Source: Hoeflea sp. (GTDB lineage: Bacteria; Pseudomonadota; Alphaproteobacteria; Rhizobiales; Rhizobiaceae). From it: a DNA stretch of 64,000 bases. The DNA lies in NCBI RefSeq assembly GCF_002733955.1, contig NZ_NVXQ01000001.1:1-64000 (forward strand), read 5' to 3'. Positions 33,044 through 63,721 of this stretch are shown piece after piece; the first letter of the stretch is position 1; every line of letters starts with the position of its first letter. Under the pieces are notes generated by a model. The model made no database searches and was not told the DNA's origin. It was given only the letters and a program-made list of their open reading frames with translations. Made by a program: the position numbers and the translations under genes.

Positions 33044-34338
<1,295 letters not shown>

Positions 34339-34355
34339 CGGCGCTGCTTAGTCAG

Positions 34356-38672: not shown

Positions 38673-38746
38673 GGCCCGTACCGCAGTCTGTGAGAGGCTG
38701 CGGTGGTGCCTTGATCCAGGGTGCGCTCACCGAAGACGACGGCAGG

Positions 38747-40090: not shown

Positions 40091-40100
40091 CGACCCCTTC

Positions 40101-41366
40101 CTACGCCGGATAGGCATCAAGTGCTGCCGCAAGCGCCGGGCTGCTCTCGGCCCGGGTTTCGATTGCAACGTCTGACATGGCTGCCTCCCAGGCTTCGATC
40201 AGGGCTTCGACGCCTGCCGCAACTCCCATCGGGTGCGCCACCACGCCGCCGCCGGCGGTGAAGATCAGGTCGGGCGATTTCAGTGCTGCCCAGGTGCCGG
40301 CAGCCTGGCGGATGGTCTGGCCCGACGAGAACACCGGCACTGCAACCATCGGCGCTGTTTCAAACAGCGGATCGCGCAGCGATCGGGCAGAAGCGATGAC
40401 GCTCTCGTCGGCTTCCGAGAACTTGTTGGCAAGTCCGTTGACATGCAAATGATCGCAGCCGGCGAGCCGCCAGAGCTTTGACCAGGCCGCAAACGACCAT
40501 CCCAGGCTCGGCGCGCGGGTGAGGGCGCCCCAGCCATTGCGGTGCGCATGCAGCGGCAATTCGGTGTGGCGCGCCAATTCGACAATGCCGGCATAGCCGA
40601 CAGAGATCAGGCTGGCCATCACGCAGGTCCCGCCCTTGGCAAGGACGAAATCATGCCGGCGCTTCATCTCGTCGATTTCCCCGGTGAGGTTGAAGGCCAC
40701 CATGGTCTTCTTGCCGGTCTTGTCCGCCGCCCGGTTCACGGCCTTCATCACAGCCGAAACCCTGTCCTCGAACGGGCACGCCGGTCCGTCTGCCTGCAGC
40801 TCGTCATCCTTGATAAAATCGATCCTGGCGTCGGCGAGCACGCCGACCAGATCGCCAGTGGCCTCGGCTGTCAGCCCGACGCTCGGCTTGATGATGGTCC
40901 CGATCAGCGGGCGCCCGTGGACGCCTGAGAGCTTCCGGGTGCCTGCCATCCCGAATTTCGGCCCGCCATATTTATCGGCAAATGCGGATGGCAGCCTGAC
41001 GTCCAGAATCCGCAGGCCGGAAAAGGCCTTGAGCTCGAACAGGTTGCCGGCAATTGTCGCCACCAGGTTGGGCAGCGACGGGCCGATGTTTTCGAGCGGC
41101 CAGGACAGGGTGACAAACGCCCGCCGGTAGGCCGGCGCTGATCCGGATGGAACGCCTGCGCGGGGCAACGAAGGGCCAGGGACTTCATCAATGATCCGCA
41201 CCGTCTCGACCCGGGCGGCTGATCGGGCCTTCAGTTCCGGCGTTTCGCCCGGCACCGCGACGAAGGTGCCCGACGATTGCTCGCCCGCCATCACCGCGGC
41301 GGCCTCGGCCGGATCGAAGGCGGTTTCAATCAGGTAATCGGCTTCAATGCGAACGGGGTCAGGCAT
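40101..41366 (-). CDS. RuBisCO-like protein, probable 3-oxo-isoapionate-4-phosphate decarboxylase or transcarboxylase/hydrolase
   Basis: 421 residues. The large-subunit active-site set is well kept: Lys160 in IIKPSVGLT, Lys186, Asp188 and Glu189 in FIKDDEL (carbamylation and Mg site), His273/His275 in LHAHRNGWG, His308 in LHVNGLANKF, and AGGGVVAHP near the end. The loop-6 lysine and other RuBisCO features are not evident, so it should not fix CO2. In apionate pathways, RLPs of this kind either decarboxylate 3-oxo-isoapionate 4-phosphate (OiaX) or split it to 3-phosphoglycerate and glycolate (OiaT). Sequence alone does not separate the two. The ATG at 41366 is 6 bases after the ApnL stop. Confidence 0.82.
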   Translation of the reverse strand: MPDPVRIEADYLIETAFDPAEAAAVMAGEQSSGTFVAVPGETPELKARSAARVETVRIIDEVPGPSLPRAGVPSGSAPAYRRAFVTLSWPLENIGPSLPNLVATIAGNLFELKAFSGLRILDVRLPSAFADKYGGPKFGMAGTRKLSGVHGRPLIGTIIKPSVGLTAEATGDLVGVLADARIDFIKDDELQADGPACPFEDRVSAVMKAVNRAADKTGKKTMVAFNLTGEIDEMKRRHDFVLAKGGTCVMASLISVGYAGIVELARHTELPLHAHRNGWGALTRAPSLGWSFAAWSKLWRLAGCDHLHVNGLANKFSEADESVIASARSLRDPLFETAPMVAVPVFSSGQTIRQAAGTWAALKSPDLIFTAGGGVVAHPMGVAAGVEALIEAWEAAMSDVAIETRAESSPALAAALDAYPA

Positions 41367-41372
41367 AAGCAC

Positions 41373-43292: not shown

Positions 43293-43340
43293 GCTTGATG
43301 ATCCCTCGTTTTGCTCACTGTCGATGATGGCCGGATTGCC

Positions 43341-44267
43341 TCAGCCCATGGTGACGCCGTTGGTGAACACATAGACCGCGTAGAGCGAGGTCGTGCCGCA
43401 GATGAACAGCCGGTTGCGCTTGGTGCCGCCGAAGGTCAGATTGGCAACGATCTCGGGAATCCGGATCCGGCCGATCAGCGTTCCGTCGGGATCGTAGCAA
43501 TGCACGCCGTCAAAGGCGCTGGTCCAGATGCGGCCCTCTCGGTCGAGGCGGAAACCATCGAAAAGCCCGGAGGTGCAGGTGGCAAACACTTCCCCGCCGC
43601 TCAGACATCCATCGTCGCCGACATCGAACCGGCGGATATGGGCCGGGCCGTCTTGCATGTGGGTGGCGCCGGTGTCGGCGATATACAGCTGCTTCTCATC
43701 CGGCGAGAACGCCAGCCCGTTGGGCTTGACGAAATCATCCGTCATCTTGCGCACCGCGCCGTCGGCCGGGTCGATCCGGTAGACATGATTGCCGTCCTGC
43801 TCGGGCGCGCTGATGTCGCCCTCGTAATCCGTGAGAATGCCGTAGGTCGGGTCCGAGAACCAGATCGATCCGTCTGAATGCACAACCACATCATTGGGGG
43901 AATTGAGCCGCTTGCCGTTGTAGCTATCGGCAAGAACCGTGATCGAGCCATCATGTTCGGTACGGGTGACGCGCCGGGTCAGGTGCTCACAGCTGACCAG
44001 CCGGCCCTGCCTGTCGACGGTGTTGCCGTTCGAATTGTTCGATGGCGCGCGGAAGACCGATGTCGAGCCGTCGGTCTCGTCCCATCGCATCATCCGGTTG
44101 TTCGGAATATCCGACCAGACAAGATAGCGCCCGGCGGCAAACCACGCCGGTCCTTCGCACCATCGGGCGCCGGACCACAGCCGTTCGACATGAATATGGG
44201 GAGCGAAGAGGGCGGAAAAGCGCGGGTCAATCAGGTCAAAGCCTGCCCCGTCCAGATGTGCATGCAA
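43341..44267 (-). CDS. SMP-30/gluconolactonase-family lactonase
   Basis: About 308 residues from a TTG at 44267 with GAGGGGAGAG just upstream; this fits the family length better than the longer frame, which would run into the divergent promoter (ATG at 44333 is the alternative). Beta-propeller landmarks are GARWCEGPAWF (metal Glu), SDIPNNRMMRWD, NSPNDVV (metal Asn), SDPTYG and PNGLAFSPD. It probably hydrolyses a sugar lactone such as apionolactone or an aldonolactone, beside or before ApnL. Two lactonases in a row may reflect two lactones or two ring sizes. Confidence 0.82.
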   Translation of the reverse strand: MHAHLDGAGFDLIDPRFSALFAPHIHVERLWSGARWCEGPAWFAAGRYLVWSDIPNNRMMRWDETDGSTSVFRAPSNNSNGNTVDRQGRLVSCEHLTRRVTRTEHDGSITVLADSYNGKRLNSPNDVVVHSDGSIWFSDPTYGILTDYEGDISAPEQDGNHVYRIDPADGAVRKMTDDFVKPNGLAFSPDEKQLYIADTGATHMQDGPAHIRRFDVGDDGCLSGGEVFATCTSGLFDGFRLDREGRIWTSAFDGVHCYDPDGTLIGRIRIPEIVANLTFGGTKRNRLFICGTTSLYAVYVFTNGVTMG

Positions 44268-44343
44268 AATGTGTCTCTCCCCTCGCGCCGGAAAGGCAGG
44301 CCGCAAATCGAGTTCGCGGACGCGCCCTTGCATCCGGATGAAA

Positions 44344-44351
44344 CTGGTATA
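44344..44351. promoter_or_regulatory. CTGGTATA site in the apionate-importer promoter
   Basis: CTGGTATA is followed by ACATGTT. The same 8-mer occurs on the other strand upstream of the NanR-like GntR gene (50894-50901). NanR of E. coli binds GGTATA repeats, so this is a candidate operator. Only one copy is seen at each place. Confidence 0.45.
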
Positions 44352-44417
44352 ACATGTTGATGAGATGACGTCCATCGGGGGATGGAGCGGTCACTCAACA
44401 TTCTGGGAGGAAGAAAC

Positions 44418-50786: not shown

Positions 50787-51097
50787 CATTGCGAAAACAT
50801 TCTCCTGTCGAGCCGTGAAGGCTGGCGGGCGCGCCGGGCAAGAAGCGGCAGCCAGCAGCATCATCTTCTATCCATTCAGAATTGGTGATGAGTATACCAG
50901 AGGGCAGGGGAGATGGAAGTGCTCAGGAGCTTTTGAACAAGCTTCCGGTGCCGTCGCCTGCAGATCGGGCACATCGATGATTGTTCCCTCGGTGGCCCCC
51001 AAATCCTTTTGCCGCGAAACGAATTTTGTACATTTGCCACGAGCGTTGACATTTGTCGATTATAGAGACATTGTTGAGCCGAAACAGGGAGGCATCC
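50787..51097. promoter_or_regulatory. Divergent promoter region between NanR-like gene and transketolase-RLP operon
   Basis: 311 bases without a gene. It contains TATACCAG at 50894-50901 (CTGGTATA on the GntR strand), and close to the transketolase gene a TTGACA at 51046-51051 that overlaps the TGACATTTGTC element. A GGGAGG ribosome site ends it. Confidence 0.5.
51046..51057. promoter_or_regulatory. Candidate SorC operator overlapping a -35 box
   Basis: TTGACATTTGTC. The inner 11-mer TGACATTTGTC differs by one base from TGACTTTTGTC, which occurs (in one orientation or the other) upstream of mtnK and between the sorC-type gene and the aldolase gene. It starts 52 bases upstream of the GTG. Confidence 0.5.
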
Positions 51098-52027
51098 GTG
51101 CGCAACGAACGTTCAACAGAAGACATCGCGATGGGGATTCGCAGACGGGTGTTCGAACACTCGATGCGCAACAATGGCGGCTATCTCAGTCAGGCCTGTT
51201 CGGCGGCCGAGCAATTGGCATTTCTGTACAATGAGGGCCTCAATCTCGGCGAGCCCGTCTTGCCCGCCGTTCCCAAACCCTTTGCCGGTGTGCCCTCAGC
51301 GGACAACCCGGACTATGTCACCGGTGCGGGCTACAACGGTCCGTTCGAGCCGCAATATGACCGCCTCTTCATCGCGCCCGCGCACTACGCGCTGGTCGCC
51401 TATGCGACGCTGATCGAAACCGGCCGCATGGATGCCGAAGGTCTCGAAATGTTCAACAAGGACGGCTCGTCGGTCGAGATGATCGGTGCGGAACATTCGC
51501 CCGGCATGGAAGTGCACAACGGAACGCTGGGCATAGGCCTGTCGACCGGCGCCGGCCTCGCCTGGGGCCGCAAGCGCCGCGGCGAAAAAGGCCAGACCTG
51601 CGTGTTCATGTCCGATGGCGAAGTCCAGGAAGGCCAGACCTGGGAAGCGGTCCAGGCAGCCGCCCATCACGGCATCGACAATCTCTGGGCGCTGATGGAT
51701 GTCAATGATCAGCAGTGTGACGGCGCGATGGATTCGGTCATGGAAGTCCGCGACATCGCCGCCAAGTTCCGCGCCTTTGGCGCGGTCTGCGTCGAGATCG
51801 ACGCCCATGACCTCGACGCCATGCGCCAGGCCAAGGCCGAGCCGCATGAAGGCCAGCCGCTGATCATTTTGGCGCGGTCATCTCCGACGCAAGGCATGAG
51901 CTTCCTGCAGAAACGCTTCCCCCGCCTGCATTATGTGCGCTTCAAATCCGAAGAGGAGCGGGCAGAGATGAACATTTCGATTGCCGCGGAACTCGGCATC
52001 GACCCAATCGAACTGGAGACGCACTGA
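51098..52027 (+). CDS. Second split transketolase, N-terminal (ThDP) subunit, divergent
   Basis: 309 residues from a GTG at 51098 with GGGAGG just upstream; a TTG 15 codons earlier has no ribosome site. ThDP motif SDGEVQEG (172-179) to MDVNDQQ about 30 residues on. Family regions are present but altered: GGYLSQACSAAEQLAFLY for the usual GHPGG/LS..AEIL block, IAPAHYALVAY for SKGHAS..LY, and GAEHSPGMEVHNGTLGIGL for the NGHP..PG.E..TGPLG block. So it binds ThDP but probably a donor other than a normal ketose phosphate. Operon with the C-subunit (1-base overlap) and an RLP. Confidence 0.82.
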   Translation: MRNERSTEDIAMGIRRRVFEHSMRNNGGYLSQACSAAEQLAFLYNEGLNLGEPVLPAVPKPFAGVPSADNPDYVTGAGYNGPFEPQYDRLFIAPAHYALVAYATLIETGRMDAEGLEMFNKDGSSVEMIGAEHSPGMEVHNGTLGIGLSTGAGLAWGRKRRGEKGQTCVFMSDGEVQEGQTWEAVQAAAHHGIDNLWALMDVNDQQCDGAMDSVMEVRDIAAKFRAFGAVCVEIDAHDLDAMRQAKAEPHEGQPLIILARSSPTQGMSFLQKRFPRLHYVRFKSEEERAEMNISIAAELGIDPIELETH

Positions 52028-53031
52028 TGGTTGAGATGGTCAGTCGCCCTTATGCCTCCGCATTCGAGGCCTTTGCGGTCAAGAATCCCGACGTCCTGTG
52101 CCTGTCAGCCGATCTGACCTCGTCCTGCGAGATCGACGGCTTCCGTGACCGGCACCCGGACCAGTTCCTCTCGCTCGGCATGGCCGAGCAGAACATGATG
52201 AGCTTTGCCGGCGGCCTCGGCCTTGCCGGTTACCGGCCGTTCCTGCATTCCTTCGGCGTGTTTCTCTATCGCCGTCCCTATGACCAGTTGATGGCTTCGG
52301 TCGCCTATCCGCGCCGCAAGGTTCGGCTCATGGGCTTTCTGCCCGGCATCACCACGCCCGGCGGCATGACCCACCAGGCAATCGAGGACATCGCGGTGAT
52401 GCGCTCGATCCCCAACATGTCGATCCTTGAGACCGGCGACGCCACAGAAGTCGAAAGCATCTGCGAGGCTGCCGATTCCATCGACGGTCCGGTCTATTGC
52501 CGGGTGCTGCGCGGCTCTGTGCCGCGGTTGTTCGATACCCCGATCAAGGTTGGCGAAATGCGCGAACTGGCCGGCGGCGACGATGTGCTGGTTGTCACCA
52601 CTGGTATTGCCACCGAAGAAGCGCTCCGCGCCCGCGACGCGCTCTCCAATGCCGGGGTTTCGATCCGCCATCTGCACATTCACACCATCAAGCCCTTCAA
52701 CGAACAGGCGCTGCTCGACCATATCGGCTCGGTGAACAAGGGCGTCGTGGTACTCGAAAACCATGTCATCGCCGGTGGCGTCGGCTCGCTGGTCGCCGAG
52801 ATCATGGCCGACAACGGGGTCGGCAAGCCGCTGGTGCGGCTCGGCCTCAAGGACACCTACGCCCATGGCGGCTCGCGCGGCTACCTGATGAAGCATTATG
52901 GGCTCGACGCCGGCGCTTTGGTGCGCGGTATCGAACGTGTCATGGGTATCGAGACCGGCATCGACGAGGAAGCTCTCGCCACTGCGCGCGTGGATGCGGT
53001 GCACTCCGCGGTCAAGGCCGAGGCTCTGTAG
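52027..53031 (+). CDS. Second split transketolase, C-terminal subunit
   Basis: 334 residues. Proton-relay Glu54 in MAEQNMMSFAGG, then HSFGVFLYRRPYDQL, GMTHQAIEDIAVM and the C-terminal domain with LHIHTIKPFN. GFLPGITTPGGM replaces the usual active-site GI..GE.G loop. It completes the ThDP active site with the preceding subunit. The RLP gene starts two bases after its stop, so a common transcript and common substrate pathway are strongly suggested. Confidence 0.83.
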   Translation: MVEMVSRPYASAFEAFAVKNPDVLCLSADLTSSCEIDGFRDRHPDQFLSLGMAEQNMMSFAGGLGLAGYRPFLHSFGVFLYRRPYDQLMASVAYPRRKVRLMGFLPGITTPGGMTHQAIEDIAVMRSIPNMSILETGDATEVESICEAADSIDGPVYCRVLRGSVPRLFDTPIKVGEMRELAGGDDVLVVTTGIATEEALRARDALSNAGVSIRHLHIHTIKPFNEQALLDHIGSVNKGVVVLENHVIAGGVGSLVAEIMADNGVGKPLVRLGLKDTYAHGGSRGYLMKHYGLDAGALVRGIERVMGIETGIDEEALATARVDAVHSAVKAEAL

Positions 53032-53033
53032 GG

Positions 53034-54167
53034 ATGGCGGAAGATACCAGGTTTCGCGTCCGCTACCGGCTGCTTGCCGACAATCCGCAGGACGCCGATC
53101 AGCGGGCCCTTGGCATTGCGCTTGAACAGACGGTCGAGATCCCCGGTGACATCGTGCCTGTGGGCTACATCGCCGATGAGATCGTCGGCCAGATCGAAAG
53201 CGTCAGCCAAGTCTCCGGCAATGCCTATGAGACGGTGATTTACTACAGTCCCGACAGTGCCGGTGACGAGGTCATCCAGCTGATCAACGTGATCTTTGGC
53301 AATTCCTCGATCCAGCAGAACATCCGGGTCGTGGGTTTTGAACCGGGAGCTGTGATCCGTGAGCGCTTTGCCGGACCACGCTTCGGCATCGAAGGCGTGC
53401 GCGCCCGTTCGGGGCGGGCAAGGGGCGGATTGATTTCGCCGGTGATCAAGCCGCAGGGATCGAGCGTCAAGCAGCTGGCTGAAATTGCTCATCGCTGTAC
53501 GCTCGGCGGCGCCGACATCATCAAGGATGACCACGGTCTGGCCAATCAGAAGATGGCGCCGTTCGCAGACCGGGTGAAGGCGGTCAGCGAAGCGGTGGCC
53601 GACGCCAATGCGAAGTCCGGCAACACCGCGCTCTACTTCGTCAACGTGACCGGTCACACAGGTTCGCCGGTGGACGAGGCCTTCAAGGCCAAGGAAGCCG
53701 GCGCCGGTGGCGTGTTGCTGATGCCCGGCCTGATGGGCTTCGGTGTGGTGCAGGCGCTGTCACGCGATCCCTCCTTCGATCTGCCGATCATGACCCATCC
53801 GAGCTTCACCGGTCCCTATGTGCTCACACCCGAGACCGGCGTGTCCCACGCGCTGATGTATGGTGTGTTCCAGCGTCTGGCCGGTTCCGACATTTCGGTG
53901 TTTCCCAATGTCGGTGGCCGGTTCGGTTTCAGCGTTGAGGAGTGCCTCTCCATCGCAGCCGCCTGCCGCGATCCCGATGGAATCGGACGCGCGATGATGC
54001 CGAGCCCTGGCGGCGGCATGAGTGTCGAACGAGCCGGCGACATGGTCTCGATGTATGGCGAAGACGTGGTCTTCCTGCTCGGAGGCAGCCTGTTGCGTGC
54101 GGGCGATGGCATTGGCGATGCAGTCCGCGCCATGCGCGACGCCGTCGACACGGCAACGGCCGATTGA
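53034..54167 (+). CDS. RuBisCO-like protein, probable 5-methylthioribulose-1-phosphate isomerase type
   Basis: 377 residues from the ATG at 53034. Active-site equivalents are Lys139 (VIKPQG), Lys164 and Asp166 in IIKDDHGLAN, His255 in MTHPSFTG, GGGM (326-329) and GG (350-351). The RuBisCO Glu of the KDDE motif is His167, which to my knowledge marks the RLP branch that isomerises 5-methylthioribulose 1-phosphate to 1-methylthio-xylulose 5-phosphate (Rhodospirillum rubrum type). mtnK and mtnA, which make exactly that substrate, lie 4 kb away. It is clearly different from the first RLP at 40-41 kb (KDDEL). Not a CO2-fixing enzyme. Confidence 0.82.
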   Translation: MAEDTRFRVRYRLLADNPQDADQRALGIALEQTVEIPGDIVPVGYIADEIVGQIESVSQVSGNAYETVIYYSPDSAGDEVIQLINVIFGNSSIQQNIRVVGFEPGAVIRERFAGPRFGIEGVRARSGRARGGLISPVIKPQGSSVKQLAEIAHRCTLGGADIIKDDHGLANQKMAPFADRVKAVSEAVADANAKSGNTALYFVNVTGHTGSPVDEAFKAKEAGAGGVLLMPGLMGFGVVQALSRDPSFDLPIMTHPSFTGPYVLTPETGVSHALMYGVFQRLAGSDISVFPNVGGRFGFSVEECLSIAAACRDPDGIGRAMMPSPGGGMSVERAGDMVSMYGEDVVFLLGGSLLRAGDGIGDAVRAMRDAVDTATAD

Positions 54168-54170
54168 TTT

Positions 54171-54240
54171 AAGCGTGTTCCGAAAAGTGGGAACCGGTTT
54201 TTCCCAGAAAACACGTAGCAAAACGAAAAATCTAAAGCTC
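54171..54240. repeat. Rhizobial intergenic palindromic repeat element
   Basis: The stretch GCGTGTTCCGAAAAGTGGGA, then an ACCGG centre, TTTTTCCC and AAAACAC, resembles the widespread intergenic mosaic element of Rhizobiaceae and Phyllobacteriaceae. Arms GTGTT/AACAC and GGGAA/TTCCC can fold. It lies between convergent transcripts, the usual location. It is the best taxonomic clue in non-coding DNA here. Confidence 0.6.
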
Positions 54241-54258
54241 TGTCCCTGGAGACCTTGG

Positions 54259-54286
54259 GGCCGGTCGAAAGACCGGCCTCTTTTTT
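54259..54286 (+). terminator. Rho-independent terminator of the transketolase-RLP operon
   Basis: GGCCGGTC (54259-54266) and GACCGGCC (54271-54278) form a perfect stem with a GAAA loop, followed by TCTTTTTT. Confidence 0.88.
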
Positions 54287-54321
54287 CATGTGTCTGCTTT
54301 GGCGGGGCGGCAATGCCGCCA

Positions 54322-54352
54322 ATAAAAAAGGCCGCATCCGAAGATGCGGCCT
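54322..54352 (-). terminator. Rho-independent terminator of the third sugar importer operon
   Basis: AGGCCGCATC (54329-54338) pairs with GATGCGGCCT (54343-54352). On the minus strand it is followed by TTTTTTATT. It lies 27 bases after the binding-protein stop. Confidence 0.88.
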
Positions 54353-54379
54353 ATAATTACCCCGGGAGGGATGTTGGGT

Positions 54380-55435
54380 TCAGCGTGCCGGCAGCGGCAT
54401 CCAGTCTGCCATGGCGACGTCGGCATGGGCGAACTGGGGCATGTTGGCCGACAGCTCGTCCATGTTCTTGATGTCGTTTTCAACCAGGAAGTCCTGCGTG
54501 ATCAGGGTCGGCGGCACCACCACCTGAGCGTCGACCTCGGCACCGGTCAGCATCAGAGCCAGAGCGCGAACGGAAACTTCACCGACCACGGCCGGGTTGG
54601 TGGCAACCGTTGCGGCCCAGGCGCTGCCAGGCTCGCGCATGGCCGAGATGTCGGCGGTCGAGACGTCAGCCGAATAGATCTTCACGTCCTGTGACAGGCC
54701 GGCCTCGTCAACGGCAATCTTCACGCCCTTGGCGAATTCGTCGAAGGGAGCAAAGAACACCGAGATGTCCGGGTTTGCCTGCAGGACGGAACGGGCCTGG
54801 TTGGCATTGGAGTTGGCGATCGGGTTGTCGAGCGTGCCCATCTGCGCGGCTTCGATGATTCCCGGATTGGCTTCCTTGACCTCTTCCCAGGCGACATGGC
54901 GACGGTCGAGCGGCGCAATGCCGGGCACGTAAACGTAGCCGGCCTTCCACTCGGTGCCATTGTCCTTGATCGCCTGTTCCAGGGCGAGCTTGCCGAGCAG
55001 GTAGTCCGACTGTTCAATCTGCGGGATCGCGTCGTTCTTGACGTCGACATCAAAGGCAACGACCTTGATGCCCGCATCGATGGCGCGCTGTGCGGCTTCC
55101 TGCATGGATTCGGTCAGGCCGTGCTGGATGATGATGCCGTCGACACCAAGTGCAATCGCCTGATCGACCATGTCGGCCTGCAGCGCTGCATCCTGGCGGC
55201 TGTCGAGAACCCGAAGGTCGACGCCGAGCGCTTCCGCCTGCTTTTCAACGCCCGACAGATAGGCCTGGAAGAAGTCGCCGGTGGAGAGATAGCGCACCAG
55301 CGCGATTTTCACGTCGCCGGGATTGTCGAGCGGCGCGGGCATGTCTGCGGCCTGCGCCAAGCCTGCGGGAAGGGTGACGGCTGCGGCCGCCAGGCCCGCG
55401 AACAGGGCAAGTGCTTTTCTGCGTAAGATTTTCAT
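54380..55435 (-). CDS. Periplasmic sugar-binding protein (third importer)
   Basis: 351 residues. Signal peptide of about 29 residues ending LAQA-ADMP, then a ribose-type binding fold with IALVRYLSTGDFFQAYLSGVE, GVDGIIIQHGLTESM, VVAFDVDVKND and VFFAPFDEFAKG. GGAGG precedes the ATG. Unlike the other importers here, the binding-protein gene is last, after ATPase and permease. Divergence from mtnK suggests methylthioribose, 5-deoxyribose or a related nucleoside sugar as ligand. Confidence 0.85.
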   Translation of the reverse strand: MKILRRKALALFAGLAAAAVTLPAGLAQAADMPAPLDNPGDVKIALVRYLSTGDFFQAYLSGVEKQAEALGVDLRVLDSRQDAALQADMVDQAIALGVDGIIIQHGLTESMQEAAQRAIDAGIKVVAFDVDVKNDAIPQIEQSDYLLGKLALEQAIKDNGTEWKAGYVYVPGIAPLDRRHVAWEEVKEANPGIIEAAQMGTLDNPIANSNANQARSVLQANPDISVFFAPFDEFAKGVKIAVDEAGLSQDVKIYSADVSTADISAMREPGSAWAATVATNPAVVGEVSVRALALMLTGAEVDAQVVVPPTLITQDFLVENDIKNMDELSANMPQFAHADVAMADWMPLPAR

Positions 55436-55467
55436 GCTGTTTTCCTCCGTTAAATGTTTCGTCTTGC

Positions 55468-56544
55468 TTAGTGGCCGCCGGCTTTCCGGGCCGACAGCGA
55501 GAAGGTGAAGACAAGGGCGATGACCAGCACCAGGCCCTTGATGAAATCCTGGGTGTAGTAGGGCGCGTTCATCATCGTCAGGCCCTGCAGCAGGATGCCG
55601 ACGAACAGAGCGCCCATCGAGGTGCCAAAGGCATTCGGCTTGGCGGCTCCCAGGACGGCGAAACCGATCAGTGAGGCGGCAACCGCATCCAGCAGCAGGT
55701 TGGTGCCCGAGGCGATGTCGCCGCGGCCCAGCCGGGCAGCCAGCAGCATGCCGCCGATCGAGGCCAGCACACCGGAAATCACGTAGGCCATGATCTTGTA
55801 CTGGTTGACATTGGTGCCGGTCAGGCTGGCGGCGCGCTCGTTCGAGCCGATGGCATACATCAGCCGGCCGTGACGGGTCAGCTCAAGAAACACCCAGACC
55901 AGGAAACCGATCACGACGAGGAAGATCACCGGCGCCGGCAACAGGTTTTCGAGCATGAAATCGAAGCGGTGACGCCCAAGCTGCAGGAACAGCGGCGAGA
56001 ACGTGCCTTCGGCGGTCGAGCCGTCGGGCAGCGTCATGCCCATGGCGATCGAGCGGCCCTCGGTGGGAATGCGCTGCAGCCCGACAAGCAGGAACATCAT
56101 GCCAAGCGTCGCCAGCAGGTCGGGAACCTTGGTCTTGACGATCAGCAACCCGTTGATCAGGCCGATGAACGCACCCATGGCCAGGCAGGCGATGATGGCG
56201 ACGAAGGCCGGCTGCTCCAGCACAACCATCATGTAGGCGGCCAGCATCATCGACGAGGTGGCCACCGAGCCGATCGAAAGGTCGAAACCGCCCACCACCA
56301 GCGTACAGGTAACACCCAGCGCCAAAATGCCCGTGATCGCCACCGACTGGAAGATGAACACCGCGCTGCGCGGACCGGCAAAACCGTTGGCAAAGACCGA
56401 GAAGAAGATCACCAGCCCGACCAGAAGCGCCAGAAAACCATAGCGGATGGCGATGTCGATCAGGCCGGATGAAGCCGGTTGTGGTTTGCGTGCGCCAGGT
56501 GTGGTGCTGCCGGATGGGTCTGTCTGGTCCAGGTTCATGCTCAT
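55468..56544 (-). CDS. Sugar ABC transporter permease (third importer)
   Basis: 358 residues from the ATG at 56544, which overlaps the ATPase stop by three bases; the open frame upstream lies in the ATPase gene and is not used. The family block VVGGFDLSIGSVATSSMM, TKVPDLLATLGMMF and about nine membrane segments are visible. A polar, Ser/Pro-rich N-terminus of about 25 residues precedes them. Confidence 0.88.
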   Translation of the reverse strand: MSMNLDQTDPSGSTTPGARKPQPASSGLIDIAIRYGFLALLVGLVIFFSVFANGFAGPRSAVFIFQSVAITGILALGVTCTLVVGGFDLSIGSVATSSMMLAAYMMVVLEQPAFVAIIACLAMGAFIGLINGLLIVKTKVPDLLATLGMMFLLVGLQRIPTEGRSIAMGMTLPDGSTAEGTFSPLFLQLGRHRFDFMLENLLPAPVIFLVVIGFLVWVFLELTRHGRLMYAIGSNERAASLTGTNVNQYKIMAYVISGVLASIGGMLLAARLGRGDIASGTNLLLDAVAASLIGFAVLGAAKPNAFGTSMGALFVGILLQGLTMMNAPYYTQDFIKGLVLVIALVFTFSLSARKAGGH

Positions 56545-58073
56545 GCGTGTGCTGTCCTTGCGGCGCTGCCGTTGTCTGTCGGCACAGCCCCGGTTACTGC
56601 GGTCAGGATCTCGTTGAGATCCACGTTCTCGTTGCGGAATTCGGCCGAGACGGAATGCTCGGTCATGACGATGATGCGGTCGGCCACTTCCAGTGCCTCG
56701 TCGAGCTCGGAGACGAACACCAGCGTCGCGCGGTTTGTCGCTGTCTCGCGGATCTTGCGGCCAATGTCGCGGCGGGCGCGGATATCGACGCCCTGGAAGG
56801 GCTCGTCGAGCAGCAGCAGCCGGCATTCCTCGGCCAGCCAGCGCGCCAGCATCACCTTCTGCTGGTTGCCGCCTGAAAGCGTGCCGATGGAATCGGCGTT
56901 GCCCTGGCAGACGATCGACAGCGCCCCGATCATCTCGTCAGCGGTTTTGCGCTCGTCGGAGCGGCGGACGAAGGAAAGGTTCGAATAGCGCGCCAGGAAG
57001 GGCAGGGTGATGTTGCGGGTGATGTCGAAATCGGCAACCACCGCATTGTTCGCGCGATCCTTGGCCGACATGAACACGCCGCGCCTGATGGCTGCTTGAG
57101 GGCTGGCGGGCGCATAATCTTGGCCATCGATCCGGATCTGCCCGCTTGCTGGCCTGCCAAGACCGAACAGGCTCTGGGCGAATGCGCTCTTGCCGCTGCC
57201 GAGCAGCCCGGTCACGGCGACAACCTCGTTTTCGCACAGATCGAGGTCGAAGGGCGCGCTGCCGGGCAGCAGCCGCAGGTCCTTGATCTCGAGCACGCGC
57301 TTGCCCGGCGCGGCAATGGTAATGTCCGCATCGGTCATCCGGTGCCCGAGCATGGCGTTGACAGCACCTTCATAGTCGAGGCTTTCACCTTCAAAGACGC
57401 CGGAGATTTCACCGTCGCGCATCGAAACGATCCGGTCGGCGATGCGGCGGATATCGGACATGCGGTGCGAGATGTAGAGAACGGCGACACCCTTGGCCGA
57501 CAGGCGCTCGATCAGCAGGAACAACCGTTCCGCCTCCGACGCCGACAGCGACGAGGTCGGCTCGTCGAGAATGAGCAATTGCGGGTCATGCGCCATCGCA
57601 CGGGCAATCGCGATCAGCTGACGGTCGGCGACGCCAAGTTCTGCGACCGATTGCCGGACATTGAGCGATAATCCCATCTGGCTGGCGATGCGCTCCGCCT
57701 CGGCATAGTTCTTCTGCCGCTTGAGAAAGAAGCCGTAACCCGGTTCGGCCAGCCGGTCGATCAGCAGGTTGGAGGCGACATCAAGGTCCGGGATGACGCC
57801 GTCATTGATGTTCTGGTGCACGGTCACCACACCGGCGCGAATGGCTTCGGACGGGGATGACGGCCGGAAATCCTTGCCGAGCAGGCTGATGGAACCGGCG
57901 TCGAGGTGGTGCACGCCGCTCAGGATCTTCACGAGTGTGGATTTGCCCGCGCCATTGGCGCCCATCAGCACGGTGACGGATCCGGCAGGCAGCGACAGGT
58001 TCAGCTGTTTGAGGACACGATTGTCCCCGAACGACTTGTTGACGCCGCGCAGATCGCAAAGAGTTCCGTTCAT
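56541..58073 (-). CDS. Sugar ABC transporter ATPase (third importer)
   Basis: 510 residues, tandem modules. Walker A GANGAGKST near residue 37, LGVADRQLIAIARAM, Walker B LLILDEPTSSL; second module GLLGSGKSA (this Walker A is less degenerate than usual), LSGGNQQKVMLARWL and LLLDEPFQGVD. GGGAGG precedes the ATG. The gene is divergent from mtnK across a 123-base gap that holds the SorC-type sites. Confidence 0.9.
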   Translation of the reverse strand: MNGTLCDLRGVNKSFGDNRVLKQLNLSLPAGSVTVLMGANGAGKSTLVKILSGVHHLDAGSISLLGKDFRPSSPSEAIRAGVVTVHQNINDGVIPDLDVASNLLIDRLAEPGYGFFLKRQKNYAEAERIASQMGLSLNVRQSVAELGVADRQLIAIARAMAHDPQLLILDEPTSSLSASEAERLFLLIERLSAKGVAVLYISHRMSDIRRIADRIVSMRDGEISGVFEGESLDYEGAVNAMLGHRMTDADITIAAPGKRVLEIKDLRLLPGSAPFDLDLCENEVVAVTGLLGSGKSAFAQSLFGLGRPASGQIRIDGQDYAPASPQAAIRRGVFMSAKDRANNAVVADFDITRNITLPFLARYSNLSFVRRSDERKTADEMIGALSIVCQGNADSIGTLSGGNQQKVMLARWLAEECRLLLLDEPFQGVDIRARRDIGRKIRETATNRATLVFVSELDEALEVADRIIVMTEHSVSAEFRNENVDLNEILTAVTGAVPTDNGSAARTAHA

Positions 58074-58106
58074 GCTGTCCTCCCGCTATGATGAAAACAG
58101 CAGCAA

Positions 58107-58135
58107 TGACAAAAGTCAATACGTATTGACAAATG
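58107..58135. promoter_or_regulatory. Candidate SorC operator region of the importer/mtnK divergent promoter
   Basis: TGACAAAAGTCA (58107-58118) is followed by the overlapping perfect 16-bp palindrome GTCAATACGTATTGAC (58115-58130) and TTGACAAATG (58126-58135). TGACAAAAGTCA reads TGACTTTTGTCA on the other strand, identical to 61604-61615 in the sorC/aldolase promoter. TTGACA here is also a plausible -35 box for mtnK, so binding could block transcription. Confidence 0.65.
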
Positions 58136-58196
58136 ATTGATACCGACACTAGGCTTGGCCGACAAATAGCCTCGACTGTCAATTGGGAGGATAGTT

Positions 58197-59459
58197 TTGA
58201 GCAACAACTACAAACCTTTATCGCCGGAGAGCCTGGGCCAGCGGCTGGGTGAACTCGACGTCATGAAAAAGGCCGTCGGCGGCAATGTCGACGCCTGGAC
58301 GGTGCGGGAAGTCGGCGACGGCAACCTCAACCTCGTCTTTATTGTGGAAGGCGATGCCGGCAGCGTGATTGTCAAGCAGGCGCTTCCTTACGTGCGCCTG
58401 GTCGGTGACAGCTGGCCTTTGCCGCTCAAGCGGGCCTTCTTCGAATATCATGCCTTGATCCGTCAGGAAGCGCGGGATCCGGGCAGCGTGCCCGAAGTCC
58501 TGCATTTTGATGAGGAGCAGGCGCTGATCATCATGGAACGCCTGCAGCCGCATATTATTTTGCGCCAGCAGACCATGGAAGGGCGCAAGGTTGCGGGACT
58601 GGGCAAGACCTTGGGATTGTTTGCTGCGCGCACGGCGTTTCGTGGGTCGGATTTGTCAATGGCGGCCAGGGACAAGAAGGCCGATGTGGCTTTGTTCGCC
58701 GACAATGTAGAGCTGTGCGACATCACCGAATCGCTCGTCTTCACGGACCCCTATTACGATGCGGAGATGAACCGGCACACCACGCCGCAGCTTGACGGCA
58801 TTGTTGCCGAGCTGCGCAATGACATCGCGCTCAAGGTTGAAGTTCAGCACATGAAGCGTGCCTTCACCTCGCGTGGTGAAACCATGTGCCACGGCGATCT
58901 GCATGCCGGCTCGATCATGGTCACCGACGATGAGGCACGGATCATCGATCCGGAGTTTGCCTATTACGGACCTTTCGGCTTCGACATCGGCATGCTGATA
59001 GGCAACTATCTGATGGCCTACCACGCCATGCCGGCCCACATCGCCGATGCCGACAAGTGCAGCGAGTTTCAGGACTGGATTCTTTCCGTGATCGAGGAAA
59101 CCTGGTCGGTCTTCCGGGAAGAGTTCCTGCGGCTGTGGCGCACCGAGCGCAGCGGCATCCTGTATCCCAAGGCGCTTTACGAGGATCAGGGGCATGATTT
59201 TGCCTCCGAAAGTGCCGCCGAACAGCTGCTGGCAGAGATCTTCCGCGATCTCGTCGGCTTCGCCGGCATTGAAATGCATCGCCGCATTCTCGGGCTGGCG
59301 CATGTCGCCGAGCTCGATACCATCGAGGATGAAGACCTCAAGGCACGCTGCGAAGCCAGGTGCCTGAAGCTGGGGCAGTTCCTTGTCATCAACAGAAATC
59401 GCCTGACGGGCATGGATGCCGTACTGGCAGCAGCGCGGCGCGCTGAAACGGGAGCATAG
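58197..59459 (+). CDS. mtnK: S-methyl-5-thioribose kinase
   Basis: 420 residues from a TTG at 58197 with GGGAGG 6 bases upstream. The fold is protein-kinase-like: [13 protein letters not shown] (nucleotide loop, 40-52), catalytic [12 protein letters not shown] (HGDLH 232-236), metal Asp251 in [17 protein letters not shown]. It phosphorylates 5-methylthioribose, and in many bacteria 5-deoxyribose, at C1 with ATP. Two bases separate it from mtnA. No methylthioadenosine nucleosidase or phosphorylase is present in the window, so the free sugar probably enters from outside through the neighbouring importer. Confidence 0.92.
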
Positions 59460-59461
59460 GA

Positions 59462-60565
59462 ATGAAGGTTGGCGATACGCACTACCGGTCGATCTGGTTT
59501 GATGGTGAAAAGTCCAGGGTCATGATCATTGACCAGCGCTGGCTGCCGCACGAATTCCGGGTGGTCGAACTCGACACGCTGGATGAATTTGCCACGGCGA
59601 TCCGTGACATGTGGGTGCGGGGTGCGCCGCTGATTGGCGCCACTGCCGCCTATGGCGTCGCCATCGAGATGCAGCGCAATGCTTCCGATGCCTCGCTCGA
59701 CAATGCCTGGGAACGGCTACACGAAACACGTCCGACCGCGGTCAACCTGCGCTGGGCGCTGGATGAGATGCGCCAGGCGTTGTCCGGTCTCCCTGAAGGC
59801 GAGCGGGCTGCCGCCGCCTTCCGCAAGGCCGAAGAGATCTGCGATGCCGATGTAGAGACCAACCGGATGATCGGCGTCCACGGTCTCGAGATCATCAAGA
59901 AGATCGCCGCCACCAAGAAGCCGGGTGAAGCGGTCAACATTCTCACCCATTGCAATGCCGGCTGGCTGGCGACGGTGGATTGGGGCACGGCCACCTCGCC
60001 GATGTATCATGCCGCGACGGCAGGGATCCCGATCCATGTCTGGGTCGACGAAACCCGCCCGCGCAACCAGGGTGCCCAGCTCACCAGTTGGGAAATGAAC
60101 AGCCACGGCATCCCGCACCATCTCATCGTCGACAATGCAGGTGGTCATCTGATGCAGCACGGCGAAGTCGATCTGGTCATTGTCGGTACCGACCGGACCA
60201 CTGCTTCGGGCGATGTCTGCAACAAGATCGGCACCTATCTCAAGGCGCTGGCCGCCCACGACAACAATGTGCCGTTCTATGTGGCCCTGCCGTCGAGCAC
60301 GATCGACTGGACCGTCGATGACGGTGTCCGCGAGATCCCGATCGAGGAGCGTGACGACCGCGAGGTCACCCATGTCTTCGGACGGCTTGAAGACGGCAGC
60401 GTGACCTCGGTTCAGATCTCGCCCGACGGCACCCCGGGCGGCAACCCGGCCTTTGACGTTACCCCGGCGCGGCTGGTTACCGGCCTGATCACCGAGCGCG
60501 GTGTTGCCGAAGCCACCCGCGAAGGCTTGTTGGGACTGTTTCCGGAGCGCCGCGACGCAGCCTGA
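59462..60565 (+). CDS. mtnA: S-methyl-5-thioribose-1-phosphate isomerase
   Basis: 367 residues. [15 protein letters not shown] (53-67), the catalytic Cys164 in [29 protein letters not shown] and Asp244 in [18 protein letters not shown] are the family hallmarks. It converts methylthioribose 1-phosphate (or 5-deoxyribose 1-phosphate) to the ribulose 1-phosphate form. That product is the substrate of both the second RLP and, by analogy, the class II aldolase nearby. Downstream mtnB, mtnC, mtnD genes of the methionine salvage pathway are not in the window. Confidence 0.92.
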
Positions 60566-60592
60566 TGATCACTCGCCTGGGGCGCAAATGTC

Positions 60593-61564
60593 TCAGGCGA
60601 GCGCCATCATTGCTGCGGCACAACTCTGGTTGGTGACCAGATGGGTGGCATATCCGCCCTTGATCGCAGCAATGGCAGCCGGCACGCGTTCTTCGCCCAC
60701 CGAGACCAGGATGCCCATGTCGCGGTGGCGCAATTCTTCCAGCTCGATGCCCATCATCCGGTCATCCAGCGGGCCGCTGACAGGGTCGCCCTTGGCATCG
60801 ATGAAGCGTCCGCACATCACCCCGACCGCGCCGTTGGCAATATAGTCTTCCAGCTCCTGCTGTGTCGCAACGCCACTCGAAGCGACGTGGCTGTCGGGAT
60901 TGCAGGACCCGACGGCGAACAGCGTCTTGTTGCAGTCGCTGATGGCATCGAGCTGCCTGGCGATCAGCGATTCCGCGCGCAGCGTGGCCGCGATCTCGGC
61001 GGTGCTCAAAATGGCCGGCACATGCAGGTTGATGCACTTGGCGGAGAATTTGCGCGCCACATTGGAGGAACAGACATCGGCCGAAAATCCGTAGGGCGTG
61101 GCCATCGAACCAACCAGCTGCAACACGGTGAGGTCGGGTATGTTGGTCTGTTCAAGCCGCTCGGCAACATCATAGATGGTCTTGCCCCAAGCCACGCCGA
61201 GCCTGTCGCCGGGCTCGAGAAGGCTTGGCAGCCAGTCGGCGGCCCCGCGAATGATGCGGCTTGCGTGGTCGTCCTGACCGCCGGTCCCGTCGGGGAGCAC
61301 ATAGGCCGCCTTGAGTCCGAACCGTTCGCGCAGGTCCAGCGCCGCACGGTGGGTGTTGAAGGCTTCTGGTGACAATTTGGTGTGGATGTAGCCGCGTTCG
61401 CGGGCTTCCTGCAGATAATTGACCACCGTCGCTCGCGACACCAGCAGCTTGTTGGCGATCTCGCTCTGATTGAGACCGTCGTGGTAATAAAGCCACGCGG
61501 TTTCGACGACGATATCCTCGCCGCTGATCTGCTTGGTAGAGCGCCTGGTCGAGTTCTGAGGCAT
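60593..61564 (-). CDS. SorC-family sugar-binding transcriptional regulator
   Basis: 323 residues. N-terminal helix-turn-helix in AWLYYHDGLNQSEIANKLLV and SRATVVNYLQEARERG, followed by the SorC sugar-phosphate-binding domain with LGVAWGKTIYDVAERL, QLVGSMA and GRFIDAKGDPV. It is divergent from the aldolase gene and convergent with mtnA. Matching operator-like sites in its own promoter, upstream of mtnK/importer and upstream of the transketolase-RLP operon make it the likely local regulator, with a ketose or aldose phosphate as signal. Confidence 0.88.
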   Translation of the reverse strand: MPQNSTRRSTKQISGEDIVVETAWLYYHDGLNQSEIANKLLVSRATVVNYLQEARERGYIHTKLSPEAFNTHRAALDLRERFGLKAAYVLPDGTGGQDDHASRIIRGAADWLPSLLEPGDRLGVAWGKTIYDVAERLEQTNIPDLTVLQLVGSMATPYGFSADVCSSNVARKFSAKCINLHVPAILSTAEIAATLRAESLIARQLDAISDCNKTLFAVGSCNPDSHVASSGVATQQELEDYIANGAVGVMCGRFIDAKGDPVSGPLDDRMMGIELEELRHRDMGILVSVGEERVPAAIAAIKGGYATHLVTNQSCAAAMMALA

Positions 61565-61586
61565 TTCAATCCATCATCAATATATA

Positions 61587-61619
61587 CATTTGACAATAGA
61601 CGATGACTTTTGTCAAATG
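61587..61619. promoter_or_regulatory. Long inverted repeat, SorC operator between sorC-type and aldolase genes
   Basis: CATTTGACAA (61587-61596) and TTGTCAAATG (61610-61619) are a perfect 10-bp inverted repeat; TGACTTTTGTCA (61604-61615) lies within it. TTGACA elements on both strands fall in the repeat, so one bound regulator could shut both promoters. Confidence 0.7.
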
Positions 61620-61648
61620 CAGCGAATTCACATGGGCAGGAGAAGGTA

Positions 61649-63721
61649 ATGCGGCAAAACAGGTGGAATGACAAGGAAGCCCAGGCGCGGGTGGACGCAG
61701 CAGGCTCGGATCCCGCCGATCAGACACTGGCGCTCAGGGTCTATTCGTCCCGCATCATCGGCGCGGATCCCGACCTTGTCATGCATGGCGGCGGCAACAC
61801 CTCGGTCAAGACCGAGCGCAAGGACCTGTTCGGCAACCTCCAGAAGGTGCTGCACGTCAAGGGCAGCGGGTGGGACCTCGACACGCTTGAAGCGCCCGGT
61901 CTGCCCGGTGTCCGGCTGGCGCCGCTGCTCGAGATGCGCAAGCTCGACGCCTTGTCTGACGAAGACATGGTCAACATGCAGCGCTCCAACCTGCTTGATT
62001 CGAGCGCCCCCAACCCGTCGGTCGAAACCCTGCTGCACGCCTTCCTGCCGCACAATTTTGTCGACCACACCCACGCTACGGCGTTTCTGGCGCTGGCAAA
62101 CCTGCCTGATGCCGAAGCTGCGATCCATGAGATCTTCGGTGACCGGCTGGCTGTTGTGCCCTACATCATGCCCGGTTTCGCGCTGGCCAAAAAGGCGGCC
62201 GAAGTGTTTGACGCCAATCCCGACTGCGAAGGCCTGATCCTGCTCAAGCATGGCCATTTCACCTTCGGCGCAACGGCGCGCGAAAGTTATGACAAGGTCA
62301 TCGAGCACACCAACATGGTCGAGGAATGGCTGGCCGCCCGTGCCAACGGCCGCAGCTTTGATCTCACCGTCCAGCGCGACCGCTCCATACCGGATGCGGA
62401 CCTGGCCGCACCGGTCCTTCCGCTCTTGCGCGGCGCGATCGGTCGTCTGCGAGGCGCGCATCACGCAAGCGCCCCGCGGCCGGTGGTGATGGACGTCAGA
62501 AGCGGCGAGGCGATCGACGCTTTCCTGCATCGCGGTGATCTCGAACAGCTGGCCCAACGCGGGGTCGCATCGCCCGATCATGTCATTCGCACCAAGGGCC
62601 GCATGCTGGTTCTCGGCAAGCAGGATCTGGCCAGCGGACGCGAGGGCATTCAGGCGCGAGTGGATGAGTTCGCCAAGGCTTACCATGCGATGTTCGACGC
62701 CCAGAACCAGCGGGTCGGCGGCGGCAAGGTGATGCTGGAGCCGCACCCCTGCGTCGCTTGGGTCGAAGGGCTCGGCATTATCGGCATCGGCAAGGATGCA
62801 TCGGCCGCTGCTGCCGCCGCTGATATTGCCGAACAGACCGTCGAAGTCATGACGCTCGGCGAAGCGGCCGGCGGGTTCCGCCCCATTGGTCCGGATGATC
62901 TGTTCGACATGGAGTACTGGTCGCTCGAGCAGGCCAAGCTGGCAAAGGCTGCCGCCAAGCCCTTCACCGGGCAGGTGGTGGCCGTCACCGGCGGCGCCGG
63001 CGCCATCGGGCTTGCGACGGCCAAGGCCTTTGCGCGTGAGGGCGCAGCGATCGCCCTGATCGATTTCAACGCCGAGGCCTGCAAGGCCGCCGCCGCCGCG
63101 ATCGGACCGAATTGCCTTGCCGTGGTCGCCGATCTGACCGCAAAGGGTGCAGCAGACAAGGCCGTGGCCGAGATCGTTGAACGCTTCGGTGGCCTCGATG
63201 TGCTGGTGTCCAACGCCGGCGCCGCCATTCAGGGCATGCTGCTCGATTTCGACGAGGACACGCTGCGCTCGAGCTTCGAGCTCAATTTCTTTTCCCATCT
63301 CGCCATGGCGCGCGCTGCGGCACGGGTGTTCGCGGCGCAGGAGCATGGCGGCCAGATGCTGTTCAACGTCTCCAAGCAGGCGGTCAACCCGGGCAAGGGC
63401 TTTGGCGCCTACGGGCTTCCCAAGGCCGCAACCTTCTTCCTGGTCCGGCAACTGGCGCTTGAACTCGGCGGCTCCGGCGTCAGGGTCAACGGCGTCAATG
63501 CCGACCGCATCCGCTCCGGCCTGCTGACCGACGACTTCATCAAGTCCCGCGCCGAGGCGAGAGGTGTGTCCGCGTCCGATTACATGGCCGGCAACCTGCT
63601 CAAGGCAGAGGTCGAAGCGCATCATGTCGCCGATGCTTTCATGGCGCTGGCGAAGTCAGAGCGGACCACGGCCCATGTCATCACCGTCGATGGCGGCAAC
63701 ATCGAGGCCGCATTACGTTAG
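61649..63721 (+). CDS. Class II aldolase/short-chain dehydrogenase fusion (RhaD-like)
   Basis: 690 residues from the ATG at 61649 (GGAGAAGG upstream). The N-terminal class II aldolase domain has HGGGNTSVK (46-54), zinc ligands His140 and His142 in VDHTHATAF and a His in LLKHGHFTFG (201/203). The C-terminal SDR domain begins near 444 with TGGAGAIG and has NVSKQAV, the YGLPK pair near 588 and a final VDGGNIEAALR. In rhizobia such fusions split rhamnulose 1-phosphate to DHAP and lactaldehyde and oxidise the aldehyde. Beside mtnK and mtnA, cleavage of (methylthio/deoxy)ribulose 1-phosphate is more likely. No rhamnose genes are seen. Confidence 0.85.
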   Translation: MRQNRWNDKEAQARVDAAGSDPADQTLALRVYSSRIIGADPDLVMHGGGNTSVKTERKDLFGNLQKVLHVKGSGWDLDTLEAPGLPGVRLAPLLEMRKLDALSDEDMVNMQRSNLLDSSAPNPSVETLLHAFLPHNFVDHTHATAFLALANLPDAEAAIHEIFGDRLAVVPYIMPGFALAKKAAEVFDANPDCEGLILLKHGHFTFGATARESYDKVIEHTNMVEEWLAARANGRSFDLTVQRDRSIPDADLAAPVLPLLRGAIGRLRGAHHASAPRPVVMDVRSGEAIDAFLHRGDLEQLAQRGVASPDHVIRTKGRMLVLGKQDLASGREGIQARVDEFAKAYHAMFDAQNQRVGGGKVMLEPHPCVAWVEGLGIIGIGKDASAAAAAADIAEQTVEVMTLGEAAGGFRPIGPDDLFDMEYWSLEQAKLAKAAAKPFTGQVVAVTGGAGAIGLATAKAFAREGAAIALIDFNAEACKAAAAAIGPNCLAVVADLTAKGAADKAVAEIVERFGGLDVLVSNAGAAIQGMLLDFDEDTLRSSFELNFFSHLAMARAAARVFAAQEHGGQMLFNVSKQAVNPGKGFGAYGLPKAATFFLVRQLALELGGSGVRVNGVNADRIRSGLLTDDFIKSRAEARGVSASDYMAGNLLKAEVEAHHVADAFMALAKSERTTAHVITVDGGNIEAALR

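Follow-up and report, generated by a model that had tools for sequence, protein, structure and literature searches.

A split transketolase and a Rubisco-like protein beside mtnK and mtnA

We analysed 64,000 nucleotides of Hoeflea sp. DNA (NCBI RefSeq assembly GCF_002733955.1, contig NZ_NVXQ01000001.1, positions 1 to 64,000; hereafter the window), a piece of contig C35 in a 4.86-Mb genome. Our subject is an operon encoding a split transketolase, TK2 (halves TK2a and TK2b), and a Rubisco-like protein (RLP), RLP2, together with nearby genes that may form a regulon for 5-methylthioribose (MTR). A first-pass annotation had described an operon with a split transketolase and an RLP carrying a KDDH motif, beside an importer, mtnK, mtnA and a fusion of a class II aldolase to a short-chain dehydrogenase (SDR), and we recovered all of these genes in place. 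The closest named relatives of RLP2 found in this comparison were from Hoeflea. The gene set comprises the following features.

51031–51055, plus strand: operator-like site 5′ of TK2a, CATTTGCCA-N7-TGACATTTG; pattern match, one of three in 64 kb
51098–52027, plus strand: TK2a, N-terminal half of the split transketolase; matches 6yak, a split transketolase chain of solved structure, at E 2e-32
52027–53031, plus strand: TK2b, C-terminal half of the split transketolase; 6yaj, E 1e-54
53034–54167, plus strand: RLP2, proposed 5-methylthioribulose-1-phosphate 1,3-isomerase; closest solved chain 3qfw, E 9e-71
54380–55435, minus strand: SBP3, substrate-binding protein of a sugar ABC importer; best solved relative 4ry8
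55468–56541, minus strand: importer permease; start chosen from orthologue length
56541–58073, minus strand: importer ATPase; open reading frame and comparison with relatives
58110–58135, minus strand: operator-like site in the divergent importer/mtnK promoter; pattern match, kept in relatives
58197–59459, plus strand: MtnK, 5-methylthioribose kinase; TIGR01767 487 bits (cut-off 275), solved methylthioribose kinase 2olc, E 4e-71
59462–60565, plus strand: MtnA, methylthioribose-1-phosphate isomerase; TIGR00512 434 bits (cut-off 279)
60593–61564, minus strand: SorC/DeoR-type regulator, proposed to regulate the set; NF053881 207 bits, under the cut-off of 420; own promoter has an operator-like site
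61587–61612, plus strand: operator-like site in the divergent regulator/aldolase promoter; pattern match, also found by matrix scan
61610–63721, plus strand: bifunctional class II aldolase/SDR fusion; NF006192 889 bits (cut-off 639), first ATG at 61652

TK2a, TK2b and RLP2 form a single tight operon (51098–54167), in which RLP2 starts two bases past the TK2b stop codon and contains IIKDDHGL. The mechanical open reading frame of TK2a spans 51053–52027; we propose the GTG at 51098, preceded by AGGGAGG, as its start because the orthologues at loci L149 and L151 open with M-R-N-E-K. None of the three proteins reaches an NCBIfam cut-off, and they were assigned through solved relatives. Beyond this operon lie three units: the importer genes (54380–58073, minus strand), mtnK–mtnA, and the regulator divergent from the aldolase/SDR fusion. 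The best solved relative of SBP3, 4ry8 (E 8.4e-66, residues 30–346), is titled '5-methylthioribose transporter solute binding protein TLET_1677'. The evidence here is the sequence match; from a search with the AlphaFold model, which was of low quality (pLDDT 42.6), we took only the title of the best PDB entry. We found no useful paper on that entry.

RLP2 and TK2 occur together and with mtnA and mtnK

RLP2-type proteins were encoded in 23 of 397 genomes of the order (22 at E <1e-100 and one match of 54% truncated where its contig stops), and TK2b in 26 (E 1e-90 or better). All 23 were among the 26 (Fisher p 2e-34, uncorrected for relatedness), the remaining three being G273, G330 and G367. RLP matches of either kind were found in 16 of 385 genomes of a class sample and 5 of 398 of a phylum sample, the window's own excluded, with laxer cut-offs and repeats between the samples. 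We then compared 40 TK2b-bearing loci, window included, 34 of which are TK2–RLP loci. mtnA was present in 24 and mtnK in 22 of the 40, with the same counts, 24 and 22, among the 34, and the expectation that the RLP–transketolase pair goes with mtnK and mtnA was thus borne out: we did not find the pair mostly outside such clusters. Ten of the 34 lacked mtnA; nine of these were in searched genomes, all nine of which encoded MtnA elsewhere, and the tenth has a Vibrio host. In the genome check for MtnA, 11 of 13 genomes were positive, including G071. Across the order, 250 of 397 genomes encode MtnA, and every one of the 23 with RLP2 does so (p 1.6e-5, uncorrected).

Gene order points the same way. 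The order mtnK-mtnA-TK2a-TK2b-RLP was seen in L058 and L076 (one genome), L059, L060, L077 and L082. At L105 (7149–9119, minus strand), MtnA and TK2a are fused in one 656-codon frame, followed by TK2b and the RLP; the junction holds no ATG, GTG or TTG, although the case is a single contig from one genome. In Ponticoccus (L075), the order is a BMP-family nucleoside-type importer, purine nucleoside phosphorylase, amidohydrolase, mtnA, an S/N-oxide reductase, TK2a, TK2b and the RLP, and ribose 1-phosphate would there come from a nucleoside. A chance neighbourhood for TK2 and RLP2 was ruled out by their co-occurrence and by gene order and identity conserved over many families.

Some loci carry other genes beside TK2. 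Twelve of the 40 loci (L047, L049, L050, L051, L053, L075, L079, L080, L149, L150, L152 and L153) have a BisC-family S/N-oxide reductase in the neighbourhood of TK2; the family call was made at 901 and 845 bits to TIGR00509, under its cut-off of 1018. Several of these loci also hold an FGGY kinase, a Zn-dehydrogenase and a class II aldolase, some without an RLP. At L149 (10174–14060), three genes that by eye look like a DmsABC-type reductase adjoin TK2. The nearby S/N-oxide reductases are a hint of a sulphur-bearing substrate; in the locus comparison, the window cluster itself had no BisC-family reductase.

TK2 stands where related RLPs have a cupin

We sorted 64 distinct RLPs, each scoring at least 130 bits to RLP2, according to the gene beside them. 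TK2b was the neighbour of 34 and a cupin that of 26, four had neither, and none had both. The first-pass annotation had suggested checking whether the pair is conserved where the cupin is absent; in these counts, the pair takes the cupin's place. The other partner was also absent from all wide loci checked (42 TK-type and 27 cupin-side), and of the family codes, in rows that have them, 13 were TK-labelled, 11 cupin-labelled and none carried both. The cupin query was the cupin beside the Terrarubrum RLP, which matches no NCBIfam family; from their place, we infer that RLP-adjacent cupins are methylsulfurylases. That the window lacks such a cupin had been noticed from the sequence alone, and a search of the whole genome for one encoded elsewhere gave no match; this search had no positive control, and the same query finds cupins beside 26 other RLPs.

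In the RLP tree, one side holds all 34 TK-RLPs together with L026 and L070, the latter on a long branch; L072 and L093 group with 25 of the 26 cupin-RLPs on the opposite side. The exception is L122, a cupin-RLP at 45% identity that sits near the base beside the long outgroup, where its placement is unsure. In the TK group and the cupin group alike, residues K139, K164, D166, H167, H255 and R296 and the glycine loops are conserved at 97% or above. The closest solved chain, 3qfw, is titled as an R. palustris Rubisco-like protein; the RLP2 model is middling (pLDDT 67.7) and was used for the fold match and entry title. We take 3qfw to be R. palustris RLP1, RLP2 of R. palustris being entry 2qyg. 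With the shared catalytic residues, and as a sister group of the cupin-partnered RLPs, RLP2 is by sequence assigned to the DeepYkr isomerase class. The available text of PMC5893883 describes RLP1 of R. palustris, which belongs to the cupin-partnered kind: from 5-methylthioribulose 1-phosphate it makes 1-methylthioxylulose 5-phosphate (MTXu-5P) and the ribulose isomer at 3:1, and the cupin in the next step yields 1-deoxyxylulose 5-phosphate (DXP) and a glutathione adduct.

The four RLPs with neither neighbour are L026, whose contig carries TK2 at a distance of about 20 kb, L093, whose RLP stops 81 bases short of a contig end, and two other variants, L070 and L072. At L072 (6753–11655), genes for an MtnK-like protein, a 445-amino-acid protein, an RLP (34%) and a PfkB-type kinase (by eye) are consecutive, with neither cupin nor transketolase, possibly a third RLP variant. 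L070 (9398–10510, minus strand) encodes an RLP relative that has lost the catalytic lysines (GPQ, IEQPT) in a genome that also has a TK-type RLP.

TK2 has lost a donor-binding histidine

TK2 has the catalytic glutamate for thiamine diphosphate (ThDP) and both domains of a split transketolase, and is missing donor-binding His100 (residues are in EcTK numbering). Glu411, His473 and Arg520 are conserved in all 41 distinct TK2b proteins, in all of which Asp469 is replaced by Gly and His461 by Phe. In TK2a, His66 is kept in 41 of 42 distinct rows and His26 is Tyr in 39 of 42, the other three being cut or unreadable. His100, which we take to contact the C1 hydroxyl of the donor, is Met in 40 and Leu in one (L105) of the 41 rows covering it, the 42nd being cut. 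Given this loss, TK2 should accept donors without a C1 hydroxyl, such as MTXu-5P or DXP. The available text of PMC7661550 lists His66, His100, Gly114 and His473 as donor-binding residues, gives Phe in place of His100 in DXP synthases, and reports that another transketolase became more active on pyruvate when its His100 was changed to Phe or Leu. The statement on DXP synthase (DXS) is taken from that source, our own DXS alignment around His100 being unreliable. The window's genome encodes its own TktA and DXS elsewhere.

Compared with the Carboxydothermus split transketolase (6yaj/6yak), TK2 has the same two-gene form and keeps the ThDP residues, but His26 and His100 of TK2a are replaced, and TK2b has the Asp469-to-Gly and His461-to-Phe changes. 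Apulose-4-phosphate and sulfofructose transketolases are also of the split two-gene type.

A shared operator links the promoters

The pattern CATTTGNCA-N5..9-TGACWTTTG matched three times in the window, before TK2a, between mtnK and the importer, and between the regulator and the aldolase, and never in 100 shuffles of the 64 kb; being read off these three promoters themselves, it is post hoc for the window. An ungapped 20-mer comparison of the three gave 13, 14 and 14 matches against 12–15, 12–13 and 12–14 in shuffles, which is at or barely above the shuffled level. A more independent test, albeit on related loci, used a weight matrix built from 19 sites that lie outside TK2a promoters. Scanning 34 loci (759,602 bases), it scored 54 sites at or above 17 bits, compared with 3.0 in letter-shuffled loci (mean of two shuffles), and 53 of the 54 lay in a range from 330 bases ahead of a gene start in the set to 60 bases inside the gene. 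Sixteen of these sites, in 16 of the 34 loci, precede TK2a, whose promoters had not been used for training. We draw no p values from a comparison with random 250-base windows, as true sites occurred in them. Where TK2a lies inside a longer operon, the first gene has a site in L060, L075, L076, L077 and L082, with none in L059. For E. coli MtnR, the available text of PMC12632272 gives a suspected palindrome, CAAAT-N9-ATTTG; the half-sites agree with ours and the spacing differs.

A proposed pathway for MTR

We propose that the gene set is a catabolic or salvage regulon for MTR that includes RLP2 and TK2, a reading to which we give a probability of about 0.65. The importer would bring in MTR, which MtnK and MtnA would convert to 5-methylthioribulose 1-phosphate. 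RLP2, like its characterised cupin-partnered relative, would then shift the carbonyl to give MTXu-5P. Acting in the cupin's place, TK2 would bind MTXu-5P through ThDP and cut the C2–C3 bond, releasing glyceraldehyde 3-phosphate. The ThDP-bound two-carbon carbanion would carry the methylthio group on the next carbon and could expel methanethiol, and the remaining acetyl unit would leave as acetyl phosphate, acetate or acetyl-CoA.

The steps differ in how firmly we hold them. That TK2 and RLP2 are linked to the MTR pathway is very probable on six lines of evidence: their joint occurrence across the order, the mutual exclusion of TK2b and cupin, the company of mtnA, the MtnA–TK2a fusion, the shared operator and the importer's closest solved relative. 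TK2 probably acts on the RLP product. Elimination of methanethiol by TK2 is plausible, at somewhat under even odds, and we propose only tentatively that TK2 is a ketolase that releases methanethiol, taking MTXu-5P with phosphate, water or CoA to glyceraldehyde 3-phosphate, methanethiol and an acetyl unit. The gene set, the pairing, the shared operator, the RLP class and the histidine loss have support in sequence; we infer the substrate identity, the C2–C3 cleavage and the elimination. Two enzymes serve as chemical models: sulfite is the group expelled by sulfoacetaldehyde acetyltransferase, and water that expelled by phosphoketolase. What TK2 would share with them is chemistry, the loss of a leaving group beside a thiamine-bound carbanion, with no sequence membership claimed. 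Elimination would make sense of the RLP step, because the carbonyl shift puts the methylthio group beside the carbanion, where it could leave. It would account for that step better than plain transfer or aldehyde release, which offer little gain over the aldolase in the cluster.

Several observations weigh against this proposal. The argument for elimination is one of chemical analogy, and the proposed MTR pathway is read from genes. The aldolase/SDR of the cluster could process the same phosphate without RLP2 or TK2. In 6 of 40 loci (L079, L080, L149, L150, L151 and L153), the fetched stretch holds TK2 but no RLP, so TK2 can serve another route; in the L153 genome an RLP does lie some 20 kb off, the search for L079 and L080 covered the plasmid only, and several of the RLP-less loci hold an FGGY kinase, a Zn-dehydrogenase and a class II aldolase. 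Two genomes, G273 and G330, had no MtnA in the genome search. Direct phosphorylation of a 1-substituted xylulose, which is hypothetical, would reconcile these RLP-less loci and MtnA-less genomes. The Vibrio nigripulchritudo RLP is divergent, with the motif KEDD, and has no mtnK or mtnA nearby. Eight of the 34 scanned loci lacked an operator site (L047, L049, L053, L059, L078, L079, L151 and L152). In the window's genome, no 5′-methylthioadenosine (MTA) phosphorylase scored above its family cut-off (MTA nucleosidase was not searched for), and the phosphotransacetylase family is present, yet it is also in 10 of 14 control genomes.

On the Vibrio nigripulchritudo plasmid (L078, 10928–16563), TK2a-TK2b-RLP is followed by an FGGY kinase. 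A gene annotated as a cupin lies 11 kb further on and does not match the RLP-partner cupin.

Alternative explanations

The first-pass annotation had TK2 cleave the RLP product to glyceraldehyde 3-phosphate and a two-carbon unit passed to an acceptor. As such an ordinary transketolase, TK2 would hand the methylthio two-carbon unit to an aldose or release it as 2-(methylthio)acetaldehyde. By sequence, TK2 is a split transketolase, and transketolase can run a one-substrate reaction if the aldose is absent (available text of PMC7403953). However, aldehyde release would give a product that an aldolase makes in one step, and transfer would yield a methylthio-ketose phosphate, for which the small clusters L075 and L105 hold no recognisable further enzyme. 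We consider this version rather unlikely. Of the pathway in that annotation, the link of the pair to mtnK and mtnA and its position in the cupin's place stood, as the RLP residues match those of cupin-partnered RLPs and the importer resembles an MTR-binding protein. We regard the linkage as strong and the transketolase step as a good hypothesis.

A second alternative is that the main substrate is 5-deoxyribose, from which RLP2 would make DXP and TK2 would release glyceraldehyde 3-phosphate and an acetaldehyde-level unit. The loss of His100 suits a DXP-synthase-like donor, and in the E. coli dihydroxyacetone phosphate (DHAP) shunt, MtnK and MtnA act on both sugars (available text of PMC10986504). 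This substrate is nevertheless hard to favour, given the importer's closest solved relative, named for methylthioribose, and the S/N-oxide reductases near TK2 in 12 of 40 loci. Those same reductases, and the variants with FGGY kinase, Zn-dehydrogenase and aldolase, would fit another 5-substituted ribose, such as MTR sulfoxide or an arsenosugar-type ribose, for which MtnK and MtnA had been recruited. Two hosts, Ponticoccus and Mariluticola, are of marine origin, which would also fit. But the window cluster has no such reductase and its importer's relative is an MTR protein, making this explanation improbable.

A neighbouring apiose-like island

A second island, unmentioned in the first-pass annotation, lies upstream at 28317–44375 and has its own RLP and split transketolase, bringing the window to two of each. 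Genes for an FGGY kinase and the second split transketolase are joined there by an isomerase-like gene that by eye resembles FucI, by kinase and lactonase genes of the OiaK-like and ApnL-like type, respectively, and by the gene for an OiaX-like RLP; AptA/B and ApnO are presumably the names for other genes of the island.

29772–31567: second split transketolase, apiose-like island
40101–41372: second RLP, OiaX-like, apiose-like island

We call the island D-apiose/apionate-like because its matches to OiaK (531/700 bits), OiaX (424/700) and ApnL (443/750) all fall under the cut-offs. The two RLP/split-transketolase sets apparently serve different pathways. RLP2 is not of the OiaX type (NF042437, 70.6 bits against a cut-off of 700) and has the catalytic motif KDDH, whereas the OiaX-like RLP has KDDE. 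Since the stretch at 28–44 kb has its own split transketolase beside OiaK-, OiaX- and ApnL-like genes, TK2 and RLP2 might be thought to belong to this island, but we reject that reading as very improbable on RLP class, on distribution (ApnL-like genes near 2 of 40 TK2b loci, the window and L060, and OiaK-like near one, the window only) and on the operator, which sits at TK2a, mtnK and the regulator and not at the island.

Relation to known pathways

The MTA-isoprenoid shunt of R. rubrum and R. palustris (MtnA, DeepYkr RLP and cupin methylsulfurylase) shares with our gene set MtnA feeding an RLP of a neighbouring clade with the same active-site residues, and in both, the RLP adjoins the gene proposed to use its product. 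Here, a split transketolase replaces the cupin, and entry would be by import and MtnK or, in L075, by purine nucleoside phosphorylase. The E. coli DHAP shunt for MTA and 5′-deoxyadenosine has in common with our set mtnK, mtnA, a class II aldolase domain, a regulator of the DeoR/SorC kind and ATTTG half-sites. By contrast, our set adds the RLP and transketolase, has its aldolase fused to a dehydrogenase and not present in all loci, and differs in operator spacing. The aldolase/SDR fusion is likely a DHAP-shunt-like side branch, through which 5-methylthioribulose 1-phosphate could give DHAP and an aldehyde in this cluster. Unlike canonical methionine salvage, the window's genome has no match to acireductone dioxygenase (PF03079), which was found in 5 of 14 control genomes.

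We found no paper on the RLP–transketolase pair in the open-licence literature searched and, going by that literature, TK2–RLP2 is a new version of RLP-based methylthioribose metabolism. The shared operator defines a directly testable regulon. If our proposal is true, 5-methylthioribulose 1-phosphate has an extra fate beside the canonical pathway, the RLP–cupin shunt and the aldolase (DHAP) shunt; the Rubisco-like family would gain a metabolic partner, and a thiamine enzyme for a methylthio sugar would be defined. As a ketolase, TK2 would allow the pentose left over from S-adenosylmethionine to be used fully as three- and two-carbon units, with the sulphur freed without oxygen or glutathione. 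Release of methanethiol would, in turn, predict that this sulphur gas has one more biological source.

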